Shown here one piece after another: positions 16,016 through 23,137 of a stretch of 33,613 bases of DNA. Below the pieces are notes generated by a model. The model did no database searches, was not told the origin of the DNA, and saw only the letters and a list, made by a program, of their open reading frames with translations. The stretch's first letter is position 1. Each line of letters begins with the position of its first letter. A program made the translations under genes and the position numbers. The stretch is from Candidatus Thorarchaeota archaeon (GTDB taxonomy: Archaea; Asgardarchaeota; Thorarchaeia; Thorarchaeales; Thorarchaeaceae), in assembly GCA_018238205.1 (NCBI GenBank), contig JABCTV010000015.1, positions 1 to 33,613 of the forward strand. The letters are read 5' to 3'.

Positions 16016-16885
16016 TCACAATAGATTATGAGCTCTCTTGAACTCAAGTAGTAGAATGGAACTCAACTCAGGATCGCTTTTCTTCGAACCAATAGGAGCC
16101 CATCCACCATCCTCTTTCTGGGAAGTCACAATCAGCTCGATACTATTTTGGATGATCTCTTTTTCCTTAGCCGTCTTGGGTTTTCCAATGGCAGTCACAT
16201 CAGCCAAATCGCAAATCGATTTCGCTTCTATGCAGTCGCTTAAATGCTGAAGTAGAGCGGCTCTTCCATCAACAATCACCTTGTTGTTGGATTCAACTCC
16301 GATCGCGTGCAATCCAAGTAGAATATTACCAGTTCCAAGAGGATCAGAGATATTCTGGTCCTTGAAATCAGGCCAATTACCATCCTCATATTGTGTTTCC
16401 AATAAGAAATCACGGGCTCTCAGTAATCTTTCACTATCTTCAAAATTCACTAAACATAAAGCTTCGAGGGATTTGCCTGTAAGCCATGTTATACTTGTGC
16501 CGACAGGATACCAGTCTCGCCCAACGCTACCCCATTTATCTTCAATGTGAGGGTCTATTTTGAGTGACTCTCCAAAGCCACCATCATTCTTCTGTCTAGA
16601 AACAAGGAATCCAATCATCTTCTTTACAGTATCTTCATACCCTGATTGGAAGTTAGAAATTAAACTCAGTAATTCAGCAGTTTCCTTGGTTGAACTGGGG
16701 GCACTCCTCTTGAATCCAAATGGGATACCACCATTTGCGTTCATGATACTCATCAGGTCTTCCATAATCTGTTCTTTGAGATCAGATGGAATCTTGTAGC
16801 CTGTAGTAATCAATCGCAGTTTGTCAGTGATATTTCCATTCAATATTAAAAAGCTCTGAAAATCATGATGAAGTTCGTTTCCCAT
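16016..16885 (-). CDS. Prenyltransferase/squalene-cyclase-like alpha-alpha toroid repeat protein
   Basis: I choose ATG 16885: AAGGAGG lies 11 bases upstream, inside the longer frame that opens with TTG at 16918. The 289-aa product shows three QW-type repeats of the terpenoid cyclase/protein prenyltransferase toroid fold: QKNDGGFGES (from residue 98), QYEDGNWPDF (165) and QKEDGGWAPI (256), each after a long helix. There is no DxDD or Asp-rich catalytic motif, no signal peptide and no thioester site, so it is neither a proven cyclase nor an alpha-2-macroglobulin. Similar stand-alone toroid proteins are common in archaea and unassigned. It precedes ogt by 3 bases and probably forms an operon with it; a functional link is not evident. 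Confidence 0.8.
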   Translation of the reverse strand: MGNELHHDFQSFLILNGNITDKLRLITTGYKIPSDLKEQIMEDLMSIMNANGGIPFGFKRSAPSSTKETAELLSLISNFQSGYEDTVKKMIGFLVSRQKNDGGFGESLKIDPHIEDKWGSVGRDWYPVGTSITWLTGKSLEALCLVNFEDSERLLRARDFLLETQYEDGNWPDFKDQNISDPLGTGNILLGLHAIGVESNNKVIVDGRAALLQHLSDCIEAKSICDLADVTAIGKPKTAKEKEIIQNSIELIVTSQKEDGGWAPIGSKKSDPELSSILLLEFKRAHNLL

Positions 16886-17025
16886 CTTAGTAAGGTCCTC
16901 CTTTGAATGAGCGTACAACCCTTGAAAATGGAAGGATTGTAAAACAAGTTAGTATAGTAGACGGCCCAAACCCATAGGTATGGATAGTATAGGTATTCCG
17001 GATATAAAAGGTATCTTAGCGCAAG
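16886..17025. promoter_or_regulatory. Upstream region of the toroid-ogt operon
   Basis: It holds the toroid gene's ribosome site (minus, about 16897-16903) and further up a TATA-like CTACTATACTAAC (minus, about 16949-16961). A TATAAAAGG on plus at about 17003-17011 has no plus-strand gene to serve. Confidence 0.35.
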
Positions 17026-17505: not shown

Positions 17506-18837
17506 GTGGTACGAGTAAAACCATTCAGAGCTTTCAGGTACGACGAGAGCAAAGTCGGTGACCTATCGAAAGTTGTCACACCTCCTTATGATATCATCAA
17601 GGGCGCAAAGGTGGACGAACTACAAGGACTTTCTGAACATAATATCGCTTGGATAATTAAAAACAAACCAAGAGATGATGATACTCCTGAGAGTAACCAA
17701 TACACAAGAGCAAGGGACTTTCTCAACAAATGGGTTGATGATAATTCGTTGAAGCAAGATGAGAAAGAATCGTTCTATGTCTATGGTCAGGATTTTGAAG
17801 TCGAAGGAAAGAAGCTCTTTCGGTTTGGGTTCATTGGTCTTATCGAGCTTGAGGACTTCGCGTCCGAAGCACCAAGTTCTGGATCATTTGCAGGCGTGCT
17901 ACAACATGAAGAAACCCTACCCAAAGACATTGTTGATAGACTCAGCTTGTGCAGAAGCTCGATGGCAAACTTTGGTCAGATTTTTGTCATTTATCCTGAC
18001 AAAGAGGGAAGCGTTGATGCAGTCCTAGAGAAGAATATGAAGAAAGGACCAGTAGCAGACATTACTGATACTGCAGGAGTAAGACATCGAATTTGGGCGG
18101 TTGATGATGAAGCTGATGTTAAAGCAGTTTCTGCGAATATGGCAGACAAGTATATCATTATTGCAGATGGTCATCATCGCTATAAGACAGCACTTCAATT
18201 ATCGACTGATAATCCGGATTTGGAATCAGCTAAATATAGGATGCTGACTTTTGTGAATATCTCAAACCCGGGTTTGGTAGTACTTCCAACTCATAGACTT
18301 GTACAAAACTTAGAGGTCTTTTCGAAAGAGAAACTTCTCGAGGATATCAAAGGATACTTCGATCTAGAAATCTTCGATAACAAAGACGATATGTTCAACC
18401 ATATGGACAAGATGTTCACACAGAACAAACATTCCTTTGGTCTGTTCATGGATGATGGAAATTACTATACATTCACATTGAATGATATGAAAATAATGGA
18501 TTCACTACTTGGCGATAAATCTCCAGAACTTCGCAGTCTAGATGTGGCAATTCTTCATGCTCTTATTCTTGACAAGATGCTGGGAATTGACAAAGAGAAA
18601 CTACTCCAAGGTACTATGAAGGGTGGTGGCTTTGTATCATACATCAAGGGTATTGGAGATGCAGTAGATGAATCAATAAAAACCGTTAAGGGTCCATCCC
18701 AGGCGGTTTTCTTTATGAATCCAACCAGAATTGAAGAGGTCGAGGCAGTGTCAAAGAACTTTGAGTGCATGCCTCAGAAAAGCACTTTCTTCCATCCAAA
18801 AATATGGACTGGATTCACTATCAACAAATTAAGGTGA
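17506..18837 (+). CDS. DUF1015 family protein, serC-linked; candidate free-serine kinase
   Basis: I place the start at GTG 17506 (product MVRVKPFRAFRYDE, 443 aa), which matches the usual N-terminus of the family and has AAGGAAG just upstream; the frame is open back to GTG 17443. Family motifs visible are KPFRAFRYD, VVTPPYDII (near residue 30) and IIADGHHRYKTAL (Asp221-Tyr226). The DGHHRY motif resembles the D-G-x-H-R motif of the ParB/sulfiredoxin fold, used by SerK and SbnI to phosphorylate free serine. serC begins 5 bases after the stop, with its ribosome site (AGGTGAG) spanning this stop codon, so the two are translationally coupled. Free-serine kinase activity is my inference; the membership in DUF1015 is firm. 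Confidence 0.88.
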   Translation: MVRVKPFRAFRYDESKVGDLSKVVTPPYDIIKGAKVDELQGLSEHNIAWIIKNKPRDDDTPESNQYTRARDFLNKWVDDNSLKQDEKESFYVYGQDFEVEGKKLFRFGFIGLIELEDFASEAPSSGSFAGVLQHEETLPKDIVDRLSLCRSSMANFGQIFVIYPDKEGSVDAVLEKNMKKGPVADITDTAGVRHRIWAVDDEADVKAVSANMADKYIIIADGHHRYKTALQLSTDNPDLESAKYRMLTFVNISNPGLVVLPTHRLVQNLEVFSKEKLLEDIKGYFDLEIFDNKDDMFNHMDKMFTQNKHSFGLFMDDGNYYTFTLNDMKIMDSLLGDKSPELRSLDVAILHALILDKMLGIDKEKLLQGTMKGGGFVSYIKGIGDAVDESIKTVKGPSQAVFFMNPTRIEEVEAVSKNFECMPQKSTFFHPKIWTGFTINKLR

Positions 18838-18842
18838 GTTTG

Positions 18843-19928
18843 ATGACAAAGAGAAAATTTAATTTTTTCCCGGGACCAGCGACTCTACCTCTTCCCGCAC
18901 TTGAAAAGGCAAGAGATGAGTTTCTAGACTTTGAAGGCACTGGAATGTCAGTGTTAGAAATCTCGCATCGTTCCAAACCTTGGCAGAAAGTCATGGATGA
19001 TGCTGATGCGCTAGTTAGAGAAGTGATGGGTGTTCCAAGCGACTACAAAGTAATGTGGCTAGGTGGCGGTGCATCATCACAATTCTACATGGTACCAGCT
19101 AATCTCCAAGTTCCAGGTAAACCCATGGAATATGTAAACACTGGAGGTTGGTCTACAAAAGCCATCAAAGAGGTCGAGCTCTATGGAGAAACAAAAGTAA
19201 TCGCATCTTCGAAAGAAGAGAACTTCTCATACATACCAGCTGATGTCGAATTCAGTGAAGGAGCAGCATATGCACACATCACTAGTAACAACACACTCTA
19301 TGGAACAGAATGGAACTATGAGCCAAAGGTTCCAAGTGATGTACCACTTGTTTGTGACATGTCATCAGACATAATGGCCCGAAAAGCCAATGTCAAGGAT
19401 CACGGCGTCATTTATGCAGGTGCTCAGAAGAACCTGGGTCCTGCTGGAGTAACCTTAGTTATTGTTAGAGAGGACCTGATAGATCGTGTGCCAGAGAACA
19501 TGCCAACTATGCAAAAGTGGAGTACTCACGTTGCTAAGGGTTCGATGTTCAATACCCCTCCAGTCTTTCCAATTTACATGTGTAAATTAGGGCTAGAACA
19601 TCTCAAGGAGATGGGAGGAGTAAAAGCGATGGAGAAGCTCAATCGTGAAAAGGCAAAGATTCTCTATGACGTGATTGATTCTTCGGATGGATTTTACAAA
19701 GGTCATGCTAGAGTAGATTCTCGCTCATTAATGAATGTCACATTCACAATGGAAACACCAGAGCTTGAGAATAAATGTGTAGACGAGGCAATTCCGCTTG
19801 ATTTGATTGGTCTGAAAGGTCATAGATCAGTGGGTGGTATGAGAGCTTCAATCTACAATGCAATGCCCATCGAGGGAGTCAAAAAACTAGCAAAGTATCT
19901 TACAGAATTCAAAGAAAAGAACCAGTAA
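18843..19928 (+). CDS. serC: Phosphoserine aminotransferase
   Basis: SerC interconverts 3-phosphohydroxypyruvate plus glutamate and O-phosphoserine plus 2-oxoglutarate, using PLP, in the cytosol. The 361-aa length equals bacterial SerC. Visible: KFNFFPGPATLPLPALEKA at the N-terminus, MSVLEISHRSKPW, the phosphate-binding WLGGGASSQF, and GAQKNLGPAG with PLP lysine Lys196, then a C-terminal SVGGMRASIYNAMPI substrate loop. The frame opens at 18765, but ATG 18843 with AGGTGAG upstream is clearly the start. It follows DUF1015 in a two-gene operon and is ended by a strong hairpin and T-run. Confidence 0.96.
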   Translation: MTKRKFNFFPGPATLPLPALEKARDEFLDFEGTGMSVLEISHRSKPWQKVMDDADALVREVMGVPSDYKVMWLGGGASSQFYMVPANLQVPGKPMEYVNTGGWSTKAIKEVELYGETKVIASSKEENFSYIPADVEFSEGAAYAHITSNNTLYGTEWNYEPKVPSDVPLVCDMSSDIMARKANVKDHGVIYAGAQKNLGPAGVTLVIVREDLIDRVPENMPTMQKWSTHVAKGSMFNTPPVFPIYMCKLGLEHLKEMGGVKAMEKLNREKAKILYDVIDSSDGFYKGHARVDSRSLMNVTFTMETPELENKCVDEAIPLDLIGLKGHRSVGGMRASIYNAMPIEGVKKLAKYLTEFKEKNQ

Positions 19929-20429: not shown

Positions 20430-23021
20430 TTATCTTGACCTCCGTCGGCTATAAACAATATAGACAACAAAAATCACCAATACTCCTGTTAACAATAACA
20501 AAAGCCTCAGTGAATCAAGTTGGTCGTCTGGTATTGTCGAACTCGACGTGGTGGTAGTTGTTGTGGTTGTAGTGGTTGTTGTTTCACCAACAGTATAGCT
20601 GAACAAGCTCGATGTTGCCCAGAAACCAAGTGTATCATTTGCATAGAATCTGTATTCTATTGTCGTTCCATTGGGATATGCTGGAATAGTTGCATTATAT
20701 GTAACTCCATTCCAAGACATTGTGATATTCATCCAGAGAGTTCCATTAGAATAAGAAAGGATTACTGTATCAACTCCACTGACATCTGTCACAATAATAT
20801 CAACCAGCACCGATTCTGTATTAATTGGAATATTGGGTGTTCTAGTATGTAACCCAAACTCAGGTGGCTCAGTATCCGCTAGTAGAATAGATACAGCTGC
20901 ATCAGCATCGATCTTACCCCAACCCCAATCATTGTTAGGTACAACTCCAGTAAAGCCATCACTTCTTGCTGTTGATTCGATGATTGTCTTGACTTGACTT
21001 CCGCTTGTGGGGTCCGCCTGAAGCATTAGTGCAACACACCCTGCAACATGAGGACCTGCGGCACTAGTACCACTAAACAAACGGTAACTGCCAAATTGCA
21101 TATCGAATGGAAGACCTCCACCTTGGTTGTACCATGGTGCCCATGTGGATCCATTTGAATAAGCAGTGATGATATCAAAACCACCGGGTGCGGAAATACT
21201 CTGTTTCATTACTCCATCAATTCTGGGTCCTCTAGAGGAGTAACTGGCTAGATCGCCAATAGTACCAAATCGTGTATTGTAACTGGCTACACTAATCGCA
21301 CTATCAGCTGTGGATGGCCATGTTATTTGGAAGTCATTTGTAAAATCACTAGTCCATATGCAACCTCCAGACCAGCTACTCCGATCATCGGATATGTAAC
21401 CATGGAAGTTTGTAGGATCTGGAGTTGTAACGTTCAGCTTGTGGAAGGGAGGAATTGTGATTACGGGAATATTCCCATGTATCCAGATTCCTAACATACT
21501 TGTACCTCGTGTTGAGGTTGAAATGAAAGATTCTACAACGAAATTAGTCGTACCTGTTTCATGTGAAAAATTGCCATAACCAATTCCGGGGTGTAAGTAA
21601 ATTGTGATTGTGAAGTTTGCAGGAATAAAGGAGGATCTATCCATAATCAAACTGAAGTTACATGCTTGGAAGTCTGTGGGATCCACTGATAAAATGGTGA
21701 TATACACGTTATTGATGTCTTCAGGTTCACCGCTTGGAACCGCGAAATCAACTTGATATGAAACCATAGGAGCGGTCGTAAACATACTATGTTTTTGAGA
21801 TCCACCAAGGTTTCCACTAGGAGAAATGACTGGGATTCCATCAGCCACGAGTTCATCAATCATCTCTTCAGCCAGAGAACTACCATCCAGGTATTGATAT
21901 GTCCATGAGCCAATTTCTGTAATGATTACATCAGCACCAGTAGCATTTGCGTATGCTAATCCTTCTTCAATACTGAGCGTTGTGTTTTCATCGCCAATTA
22001 CTCGGATCATCATTAGCTCTGCATCGGGAGCTACTCCAACCCACTGTCTAAATCCGAGTTGGCCGCCTAGAAGTATACCAGCAACAGCGGTTCCATGACC
22101 TCCACCGTTTGACATAGTATCCCTATGATTACTCAGTGTCAGATTCTGCTCACGATCCCAGACCTGCAGAGATTGCATAGGTGTACCATCCCTCTCTACG
22201 ATGTAACGAGTTTTTGGGGTTCCCAACATGACCAAATCTTCCCAGCCATCTAGCAAACCATTACCTGATGTATCATTCACAACAAAGAAGAGTTCTCCAA
22301 CATCAGGGATTGCATTTTGTATAAGATTATCTACCCAGAGCCATTCTGTTTGAACATCGAAGACTCCATTCCTGTCTAGATCCAAGGCATAGAGGGTTTC
22401 ATTGACGTCAAGTGCAAAGTCTCGATTGAAATCAACACCATCAGAACCATTTAGGAAACCACTACTAGTTGCATTAACATACCAGTGTGAACCACCATCC
22501 GCAAACCAAAGATCAGGATGTCGCCAATCCACTCCTGAGTCAAGATCAGCAATTAGAATTCCTTCGCCCGTTACATTTCTACCAAAATCATCGAGAGCAT
22601 TCCAGACGTCATCAGCATTAATTTCAGGGATAGAAATATCTCGTGGTGACTCTAGAAATTGAGCATGAGTTTGTGAGGCGATTTCACTTACATCATTCAT
22701 ACTCATTAATGACTCGAAACTAGCAGCGCTTCCATCCAAGAGATAATAGGGACCAACGTGACTCATTGATGGACTACCTAAACTGAATTCTAAATCCAGA
22801 GAGTTTATAGTGTCAAGAAGCGAGGTTGTTAAACCGTTCTCAAACTTGACAACGACAGGAATCTGTTCACCATATACCTCTGTGAGTGCAGTAAAATCAA
22901 GAGGTGTGGCTTCATGCATTACTGTCTGCGGATCATCTACCGATGATAGATAGAAAAGAGCAGGGATACTTGATAACACTAAGCATGCCATTAGTAGCAC
23001 GCTTACCAATTTCCTTTGCAT
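20430..23021 (-). CDS. Secreted, membrane-anchored subtilisin-like serine protease (S8) with poly-Thr stalk
   Basis: ATG 23021 is chosen over the frame's opening at 23099 because it starts a signal peptide (MQRKLVSVLLMACLVLSSIPA) and has GAGGAG about 10 bases upstream. The 863-aa product carries the S8 triad Asp161 (IADLDSGVDW), His309 (GGHGTAVAGI) and Ser653 (SGTSAAGPHVAG), with GNLGG before the serine. The Asp-His gap (148 residues) is very long and contains calcium-loop-like DLDRNGVFD and DTSGNGLLDGWED. After the catalytic domain come one beta-sandwich module (FGLHTRTPNIPINTESVLVD onward), a run of about 11 Thr plus Ser, one membrane helix (LRLLLLLTGVLVIFVVYIVY) and a basic RRRSR end. It should sit on the cell surface with the protease outside. 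Its layout parallels the S8 gene at 3028-6198. Confidence 0.94.
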   Translation of the reverse strand: MQRKLVSVLLMACLVLSSIPALFYLSSVDDPQTVMHEATPLDFTALTEVYGEQIPVVVKFENGLTTSLLDTINSLDLEFSLGSPSMSHVGPYYLLDGSAASFESLMSMNDVSEIASQTHAQFLESPRDISIPEINADDVWNALDDFGRNVTGEGILIADLDSGVDWRHPDLWFADGGSHWYVNATSSGFLNGSDGVDFNRDFALDVNETLYALDLDRNGVFDVQTEWLWVDNLIQNAIPDVGELFFVVNDTSGNGLLDGWEDLVMLGTPKTRYIVERDGTPMQSLQVWDREQNLTLSNHRDTMSNGGGHGTAVAGILLGGQLGFRQWVGVAPDAELMMIRVIGDENTTLSIEEGLAYANATGADVIITEIGSWTYQYLDGSSLAEEMIDELVADGIPVISPSGNLGGSQKHSMFTTAPMVSYQVDFAVPSGEPEDINNVYITILSVDPTDFQACNFSLIMDRSSFIPANFTITIYLHPGIGYGNFSHETGTTNFVVESFISTSTRGTSMLGIWIHGNIPVITIPPFHKLNVTTPDPTNFHGYISDDRSSWSGGCIWTSDFTNDFQITWPSTADSAISVASYNTRFGTIGDLASYSSRGPRIDGVMKQSISAPGGFDIITAYSNGSTWAPWYNQGGGLPFDMQFGSYRLFSGTSAAGPHVAGCVALMLQADPTSGSQVKTIIESTARSDGFTGVVPNNDWGWGKIDADAAVSILLADTEPPEFGLHTRTPNIPINTESVLVDIIVTDVSGVDTVILSYSNGTLWMNITMSWNGVTYNATIPAYPNGTTIEYRFYANDTLGFWATSSLFSYTVGETTTTTTTTTTTTSSSTIPDDQLDSLRLLLLLTGVLVIFVVYIVYSRRRSR
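20545..20585 (-). repeat. Poly-Thr coding low-complexity tract
   Basis: A run of ACC/ACA/ACT codons encodes the threonine stalk between the protease ectodomain and its membrane anchor; such a tract is a likely O-glycosylated spacer and prone to length variation. Confidence 0.7.
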
Positions 23022-23137
23022 AGGATAATACTCCTCAGAATTCTGGCGGCGATTGGAAGATAACGTAAATCCAATCTCTGTTATAGTATAATACTTCATT
23101 AACCTATTAATTTATGCAGGAAGGCTTCTATTACGAA

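Follow-up and report, generated by a model that had tools for sequence, protein, structure and literature searches.

The 33,613-nucleotide window, meaning the whole stretch of Candidatus Thorarchaeota DNA analyzed here, carries a DUF1015 gene followed on the same strand by serC (Table 1). PF06245 spans the full length of the DUF1015 protein (profile positions 1–324 of 325; E 4.2e-80; 269.5 bits, with a Pfam gathering score of 25.8 bits), and the serC product exceeds both NCBIfam cut-offs for phosphoserine aminotransferase (474 bits to TIGR01364 serC_1, for which the cut-off is 443.6 bits, and 477 bits to NF003764). A preliminary description of this DNA had proposed that the two genes are translationally coupled, and this reading holds: AGGTGA, which ends 5 nt ahead of the serC ATG, closes the DUF1015 frame and doubles as the ribosome site of serC. 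Of the 27 loci in the window's Asgard family, 22 have serC on the same strand no more than about 35 nt 3' of DUF1015 and 25 have it no more than 800 nt away, so the pairing appears to be kept beyond chance. The pair is flanked by two genes on the opposite strand (Table 1). A DUF1015-serC pair about 70% identical to the window's occurs in L053 (JAUVBH010000129.1), which is titled Thermoplasmatota and is probably a misnamed or mixed bin. The open literature gives no function for DUF1015, COG4198, or PF06245; subscription journals lay outside the search and may hold a prior assignment.

Table 1. Coordinates of the DUF1015-serC pair, its motifs and flanking genes in the window, and of features at other loci
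Feature	Position	Strand	Remarks
Flanking gene, 300-aa protein (window)	16016–16918	-	Weak squalene-hopene cyclase-type repeats
DUF1015 (PF06245, type A)	17506–18837	+	443 aa; GTG start, TGA stop at 18835–18837; predicted SerK/SbnI-fold serine/phosphoserine enzyme
H134-E135	17905–17910	+	Counterpart of SerK H29-E30 (catalytic Glu), predicted; invariant in 91 homologues
D221-G-H-H-R225	18166–18180	+	Counterpart of SerK D69-G-H-H-R73; invariant; profile alignment to SerK
P423-Q-K-S-T427	18772–18786	+	Counterpart of SerK P220-K-T-T223; profile search, hhalign
serC Shine-Dalgarno AGGTGA	18832–18837	+	Overlaps DUF1015 stop codon; read from sequence
serC, phosphoserine aminotransferase	18843–19928	+	361 aa; ATG start
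Flanking gene, subtilase (window)	20430–23099	-	889 aa
Type B DUF1015, L200	303–1661	-	
Type B DUF1015, L201	326–1642	-	
Type B DUF1015, L202	4720–6099	+	
Type B DUF1015, L203	4881–6185	+	
Type B DUF1015, L204	196–1524	-	
Glycine riboswitch, G376:C50	1871–1964	-	Just 3' of DUF1015, same orientation, before next gene
Glycine riboswitch, G265:C6	9699–9783	+	Just 3' of DUF1015, same orientation, before next gene

The predicted structure of DUF1015 points to the free serine kinases. A prediction from the single sequence was useless (pLDDT 40) and was redone with 91 homologues drawn from Asgard archaea and a wide range of bacterial phyla, giving an AlphaFold (AF2) model with a pLDDT of 95.8 and a pTM of 0.93. 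When this model was compared with the PDB by Foldseek, the first nine matches, all with probability 1.00, were SerK or its Pyrococcus homologue (1vk1, 5x0k, 5x0e, 5x0j, 5x0g, and 5x0b) or SbnI (6nr6, 5ujd, and 5uje); the tenth stood at 0.23, and all remaining matches were at or below that value. The two-domain SerK fold was recovered with TM-scores by target of mostly 0.52–0.61 (0.40 for one SbnI chain). Sequence comparison gave a fainter signal. Searching the PDB by phmmer with DUF1015 as a single sequence returned no SerK and nothing meaningful, whereas a profile of the 91 sequences matched SerK-family chains and nothing else, weakly (E 0.003–0.03), through two separate ordered stretches: one at DGHHR, then a C-terminal stretch ending in PKTT. 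Direct hhalign comparison with SerK gave 93.7% (E 2e-7), the alignment being confined to 52 columns at the C-terminus. The sequence used as the 1vk1 query, which we take to be that of this entry, returned a full-length match that seemed identical letter by letter.

All three SerK motifs, PHE (containing E30), DGHHR, and PKTT, were found in DUF1015 in collinear order. The catalytic glutamate of SerK is E30 in KPHEQ, as PDB entries 5x0b, 5x0j (E30Q), and 5x0e (E30A) show, and the acidic residue that SerK uses is conserved in DUF1015, where H134-E135 stands mostly in a PHE context. Across the 91 diverse sequences, H134, E135, D221–R225, P423, and K425 are invariant and ADGHHR occurs without variation. 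Of 127 DUF1015 proteins, 126 have HE, DGHHR, and K[STA]T in this order; none of the 384 other ORFs above 300 aa at the same loci does. The equation of E135 with E30 rests on motif, order, and predicted fold position (in the loop leading into the first helix of the ParB-like domain), and we infer that serine or phosphoserine would bind at the site formed by E135, D221–R225, and K425–T427. The preliminary description had suspected kinship with SerK and SbnI from the ADGHHRYKTA motif; that motif is present as IADGHHRYKTA (D221–R225), and both the predicted fold, which matched no other PDB structure, and the conserved catalytic residues bear the suspicion out. Structural and catalytic likeness of DUF1015 to free serine kinases, as judged from the model, is strongly supported.

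The same fold could in principle serve a non-enzymatic role, with DUF1015 binding nucleotides as a regulator or scaffold of the ParB/sulfiredoxin-like type and controlling SerC, SerA, or something else. ParB-type folds serve as nucleotide switches elsewhere, and a "DU1015" fusion was among proteins picked for nucleotide-binding tests (PMC12704722). Genes of the parA-parB type also lie beside DUF1015 in some Planctomycetota: parB adjoins it in L100, L106, L111, and L119, as well as in L065, and in several of these a parA-like gene separates the two. However, the significant PDB matches are SerK and SbnI, neither ParB nor sulfiredoxin giving a significant Foldseek match among the hits listed. 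PF06245 is the sole Pfam match to DUF1015 at E<=1 (ParB_N, PF02195, does not match), no DNA-binding domain was detected, and the catalytic glutamate of SerK is invariant. Together, these observations make a regulatory role improbable.

In a divergent clostridial form of DUF1015, which we call type B, DGHHR is replaced by DGNHS and the HE motif by ATEGTVIDRLPPR, and the C-terminus carries LPRKTFSMGEAEEKRF (or LPRKSFSMGEAEEKRF). No serine genes lie beside it in clostridial loci L200–L204 (Table 1), and type B probably has a different function within the one Pfam family.

Genes of serine synthesis recur beside DUF1015 well beyond the window's family. Unbiased clustering of neighbours was hampered by spurious ORFs in G+C-rich genomes, and homology queries were used instead; this survey, of the kind that the preliminary description had suggested, found serA and serC-type genes next to DUF1015 in several phyla. 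SerA, a class-V aminotransferase (AT5), or both adjoin DUF1015 in Asgard families f6, f11, and f20, Chloroflexota, Bipolaricaulota, and Planctomycetota; the order is AT5-SerA-DUF1015 in Chloroflexota, Bipolaricaulota, and Asgard f6 and f11, and DUF1015-AT5 in Planctomycetota. In Clostridia, SerA lies immediately 5' of DUF1015 in 25 of the best 30 loci and is preceded by a true SerC or another aminotransferase, the latter arrangement fitting the serC3-serA operons described previously (PMC9026213). Two different aminotransferase subfamilies recur beside DUF1015. When mapped on a tree of 127 sequences, serine-gene neighbours are found to either side of the deepest split, and their distribution requires eight or more changes on well-supported branches, which argues that the link is recurrent rather than inherited once.

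Neighbours of other kinds were also seen. In Thermodesulfobacteriota and Myxococcota, a methyltransferase-like family, read by eye as the tRNA1(Val) methyltransferase trmN6, regularly adjoins DUF1015 (L075, L081, L101, L104, L109, L112, L115, L120, L123, and L124). In three Poribacteria loci (L095, L114, and L130), a cysteine-synthase-like gene ends 29–62 nt 5' of DUF1015; its product scores 312 bits to TIGR01138, under the cut-off, and could be an O-phosphoserine-using cysteine synthase. Altogether, 80 of the 127 DUF1015 genes have no serine neighbour, some because their loci are short and others having trmN6 or parA-parB instead. Such loci, and type B, would suit an enzyme acting on another small hydroxy or phospho compound, with the serC link incidental in the window's lineage. 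We regard this as very unlikely, given that serine genes, with two aminotransferase subfamilies among them, accompany DUF1015 in both deep clades and that serine-specific regulation precedes some of these operons, as described below.

The distribution of SerB, the usual phosphoserine phosphatase, suggests what the enzyme may do. In a search limited to the SerB model among the phosphatase families, SerB exceeded the cut-off in 0 of 291 Clostridia, and the same search found it in seven control genomes; DUF1015 is present in 225 of the 291, type B included. Among 228 Asgard genomes, 18 have SerB over the cut-off and 129 have DUF1015, with no overlap (Fisher p=1e-7, a value that ignores the relatedness of the genomes). 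The two genes are swapped within one genus (G161 versus G159, G160, and G162) and within one family (G083 versus G084). Previous studies noted that every known form of SerB is missing from 450 gut Firmicutes genomes that have SerA and SerC (PMC9026213), and that Clostridium perfringens grows without serine despite the lack of a good SerB candidate (PMC7311316). Two control genomes, Bacteroides ihuae and Methanosarcina acetivorans, carry both SerB and DUF1015, so the role of DUF1015 may differ by lineage.

Regulation of the clostridial operons bears on the direction of the reaction. T-box leaders lie just 5' of four clostridial SerC/AT5-SerA-DUF1015 operons, and their specifier, in register with the family consensus, is UCC (Ser). 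In two T-boxes preceding genes that resemble valS, named from N-terminal sequence only, these columns read GUA (valine), which serves as a check on the register. T-boxes activate their genes in response to uncharged cognate tRNA, which suggests that the clostridial DUF1015 operon responds to serine shortage. A glycine riboswitch has been reported upstream of COG4198 in Firmicutes (PMC2211319). We saw none 5' of DUF1015 in 13 window-like, 20 clostridial, and 19 longer loci, nor, by eye against DUF1015 coordinates in 291 genomes, any upstream among the best hits listed. Two glycine riboswitches lie just 3' of DUF1015 (Table 1).

Our preferred explanation, which we hold with slightly better than even confidence, is that type-A DUF1015 belongs to the SerK/SbnI fold family as a divergent and enlarged member, that it converts L-serine and O-phosphoserine into each other and acts alongside SerC and SerA, and that it favors conversion of phosphoserine to serine as a replacement for SerB. 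The pathway would run from 3-phosphoglycerate through SerA and SerC to serine, with DUF1015 taking the place of SerB at the last step, and phosphoserine to serine would be the usual direction both here and in Clostridia. Hydrolysis is the more likely form of the reaction, since passing the phosphate to ADP or AMP would be thermodynamically unfavorable. We prefer serine synthesis on the grounds of the serine T-boxes, the Clostridia without SerB, and the mutual exclusion of SerB and DUF1015 in Asgard archaea. The same three observations weigh against the serine-assimilating route from serine to 3-phosphohydroxypyruvate put forward in the preliminary description, the interpretation of which is supported in part, through the kinship with SerK and SbnI.

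Alternatively, DUF1015 may be an ATP- or ADP-dependent free serine kinase, with SerC and SerA running in reverse toward 3-phosphoglycerate in serine or glycine assimilation, or with phosphoserine passing to cysteine. DUF1015 has the fold and motifs of SerK and SbnI; the characterized proteins of the fold that it matches are all kinases, and the phosphate-site motifs are kept. In Thermococcus, SerK channels serine to 3-phosphoglycerate and cysteine, and in some Desulfurococcales SerK lies near serA and aminotransferase genes (PMC5120207). The cysteine-synthase-like neighbour in Poribacteria and the reported glycine riboswitch (PMC2211319) would also suit serine phosphorylation, and exclusion of SerB would prevent a futile cycle. 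A kinase could thus account for the mutual exclusion with SerB but not for the T-boxes, since induction in serine shortage makes little sense for a consumer of serine. Clostridia with SerA and SerC but no SerB also argue against it, as does the lack of a glycine riboswitch 5' of any DUF1015 checked. We therefore favor synthesis and consider assimilation the weaker of the two directions, with kinase activity a close rival that is credible at somewhat over a third of the full weight of belief. Replacement of SerB must likewise be set against the many DUF1015 genes without a serine neighbour, the two genomes that hold both genes, and the phosphatase candidates of the window's own genome.

These candidates are two HAD proteins resembling phosphoserine phosphatase, which score 118–119 bits against a SerB cut-off of 144 and could perform the phosphatase step; no protein of that genome exceeds the cut-off. 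A SerA candidate lies elsewhere in the genome (368 bits to the first 300 positions of the PGDH model). A canonical SerK was sought and rejected, the single PF02195 protein, another gene, being ParB-like with no SerK match. A cysteine route was likewise rejected: of eight PALP proteins found, the five that were checked are threonine/serine dehydratases or threonine synthases. Several serine/threonine dehydratases are present. The window's genome is compatible with either direction, and the preference for serine synthesis derives from comparison with relatives and with Clostridia rather than from this genome itself.

The lack of a known phosphoserine phosphatase is a recorded gap (PMC9026213, PMC7311316), and DUF1015 is carried by more than half of the Asgard genomes sampled and by three quarters of the Clostridia. 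The chances are about even that type-A DUF1015 represents a novel kind of enzyme that makes serine from phosphoserine with the free-serine-kinase fold, replacing SerB in Asgard archaea, Clostridia, and other phyla and closing the gap in hundreds of genomes. If so, serine auxotrophy would have to be predicted anew for many microbes of the gut and the environment, and a kinase fold would have been put to use for the reverse reaction. If DUF1015 is instead a kinase, free-serine phosphorylation would extend far beyond the few archaea and the staphylococci in which it is known.

Among known systems, SerK of Thermococcus kodakarensis (TK0378; PDB 5x0b–5x0k; Pyrococcus homologue 1vk1), whose product is phosphoserine, shares with DUF1015 the fold of both domains and a common order of the PHE (catalytic E30), DGHHR, and PKTT motifs. 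Like DUF1015, it is accompanied by serA and an aminotransferase gene in some archaea (PMC5120207). DUF1015 exceeds SerK by about 200 residues, the overall identity being about 12%, and unlike SerK has an N-terminal extension with an invariant PxD (P27, D29), an insertion before DGHHR, and neighbouring regulation that suggests serine synthesis. SbnI, the free serine kinase of Staphylococcus (PDB 5ujd, 5uje, and 6nr6), has the fold in common with DUF1015; it works in staphyloferrin B synthesis, whereas DUF1015 lies in serA/serC operons. The ParB/Noc CTPases and sulfiredoxin are distant relatives through the ParB/sulfiredoxin-like fold, which is also that of SerK (PMC12704722), and DUF1015 differs from ParB in having no ParB_N match. 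SerB (TIGR00338), a member of the HAD family, is the counterpart of DUF1015 in proposed reaction and pathway position; its fold is unrelated, and no NCBIfam model, TIGR00338 included, matches DUF1015 at E<=1, which places DUF1015 outside the HAD-family SerB proteins.
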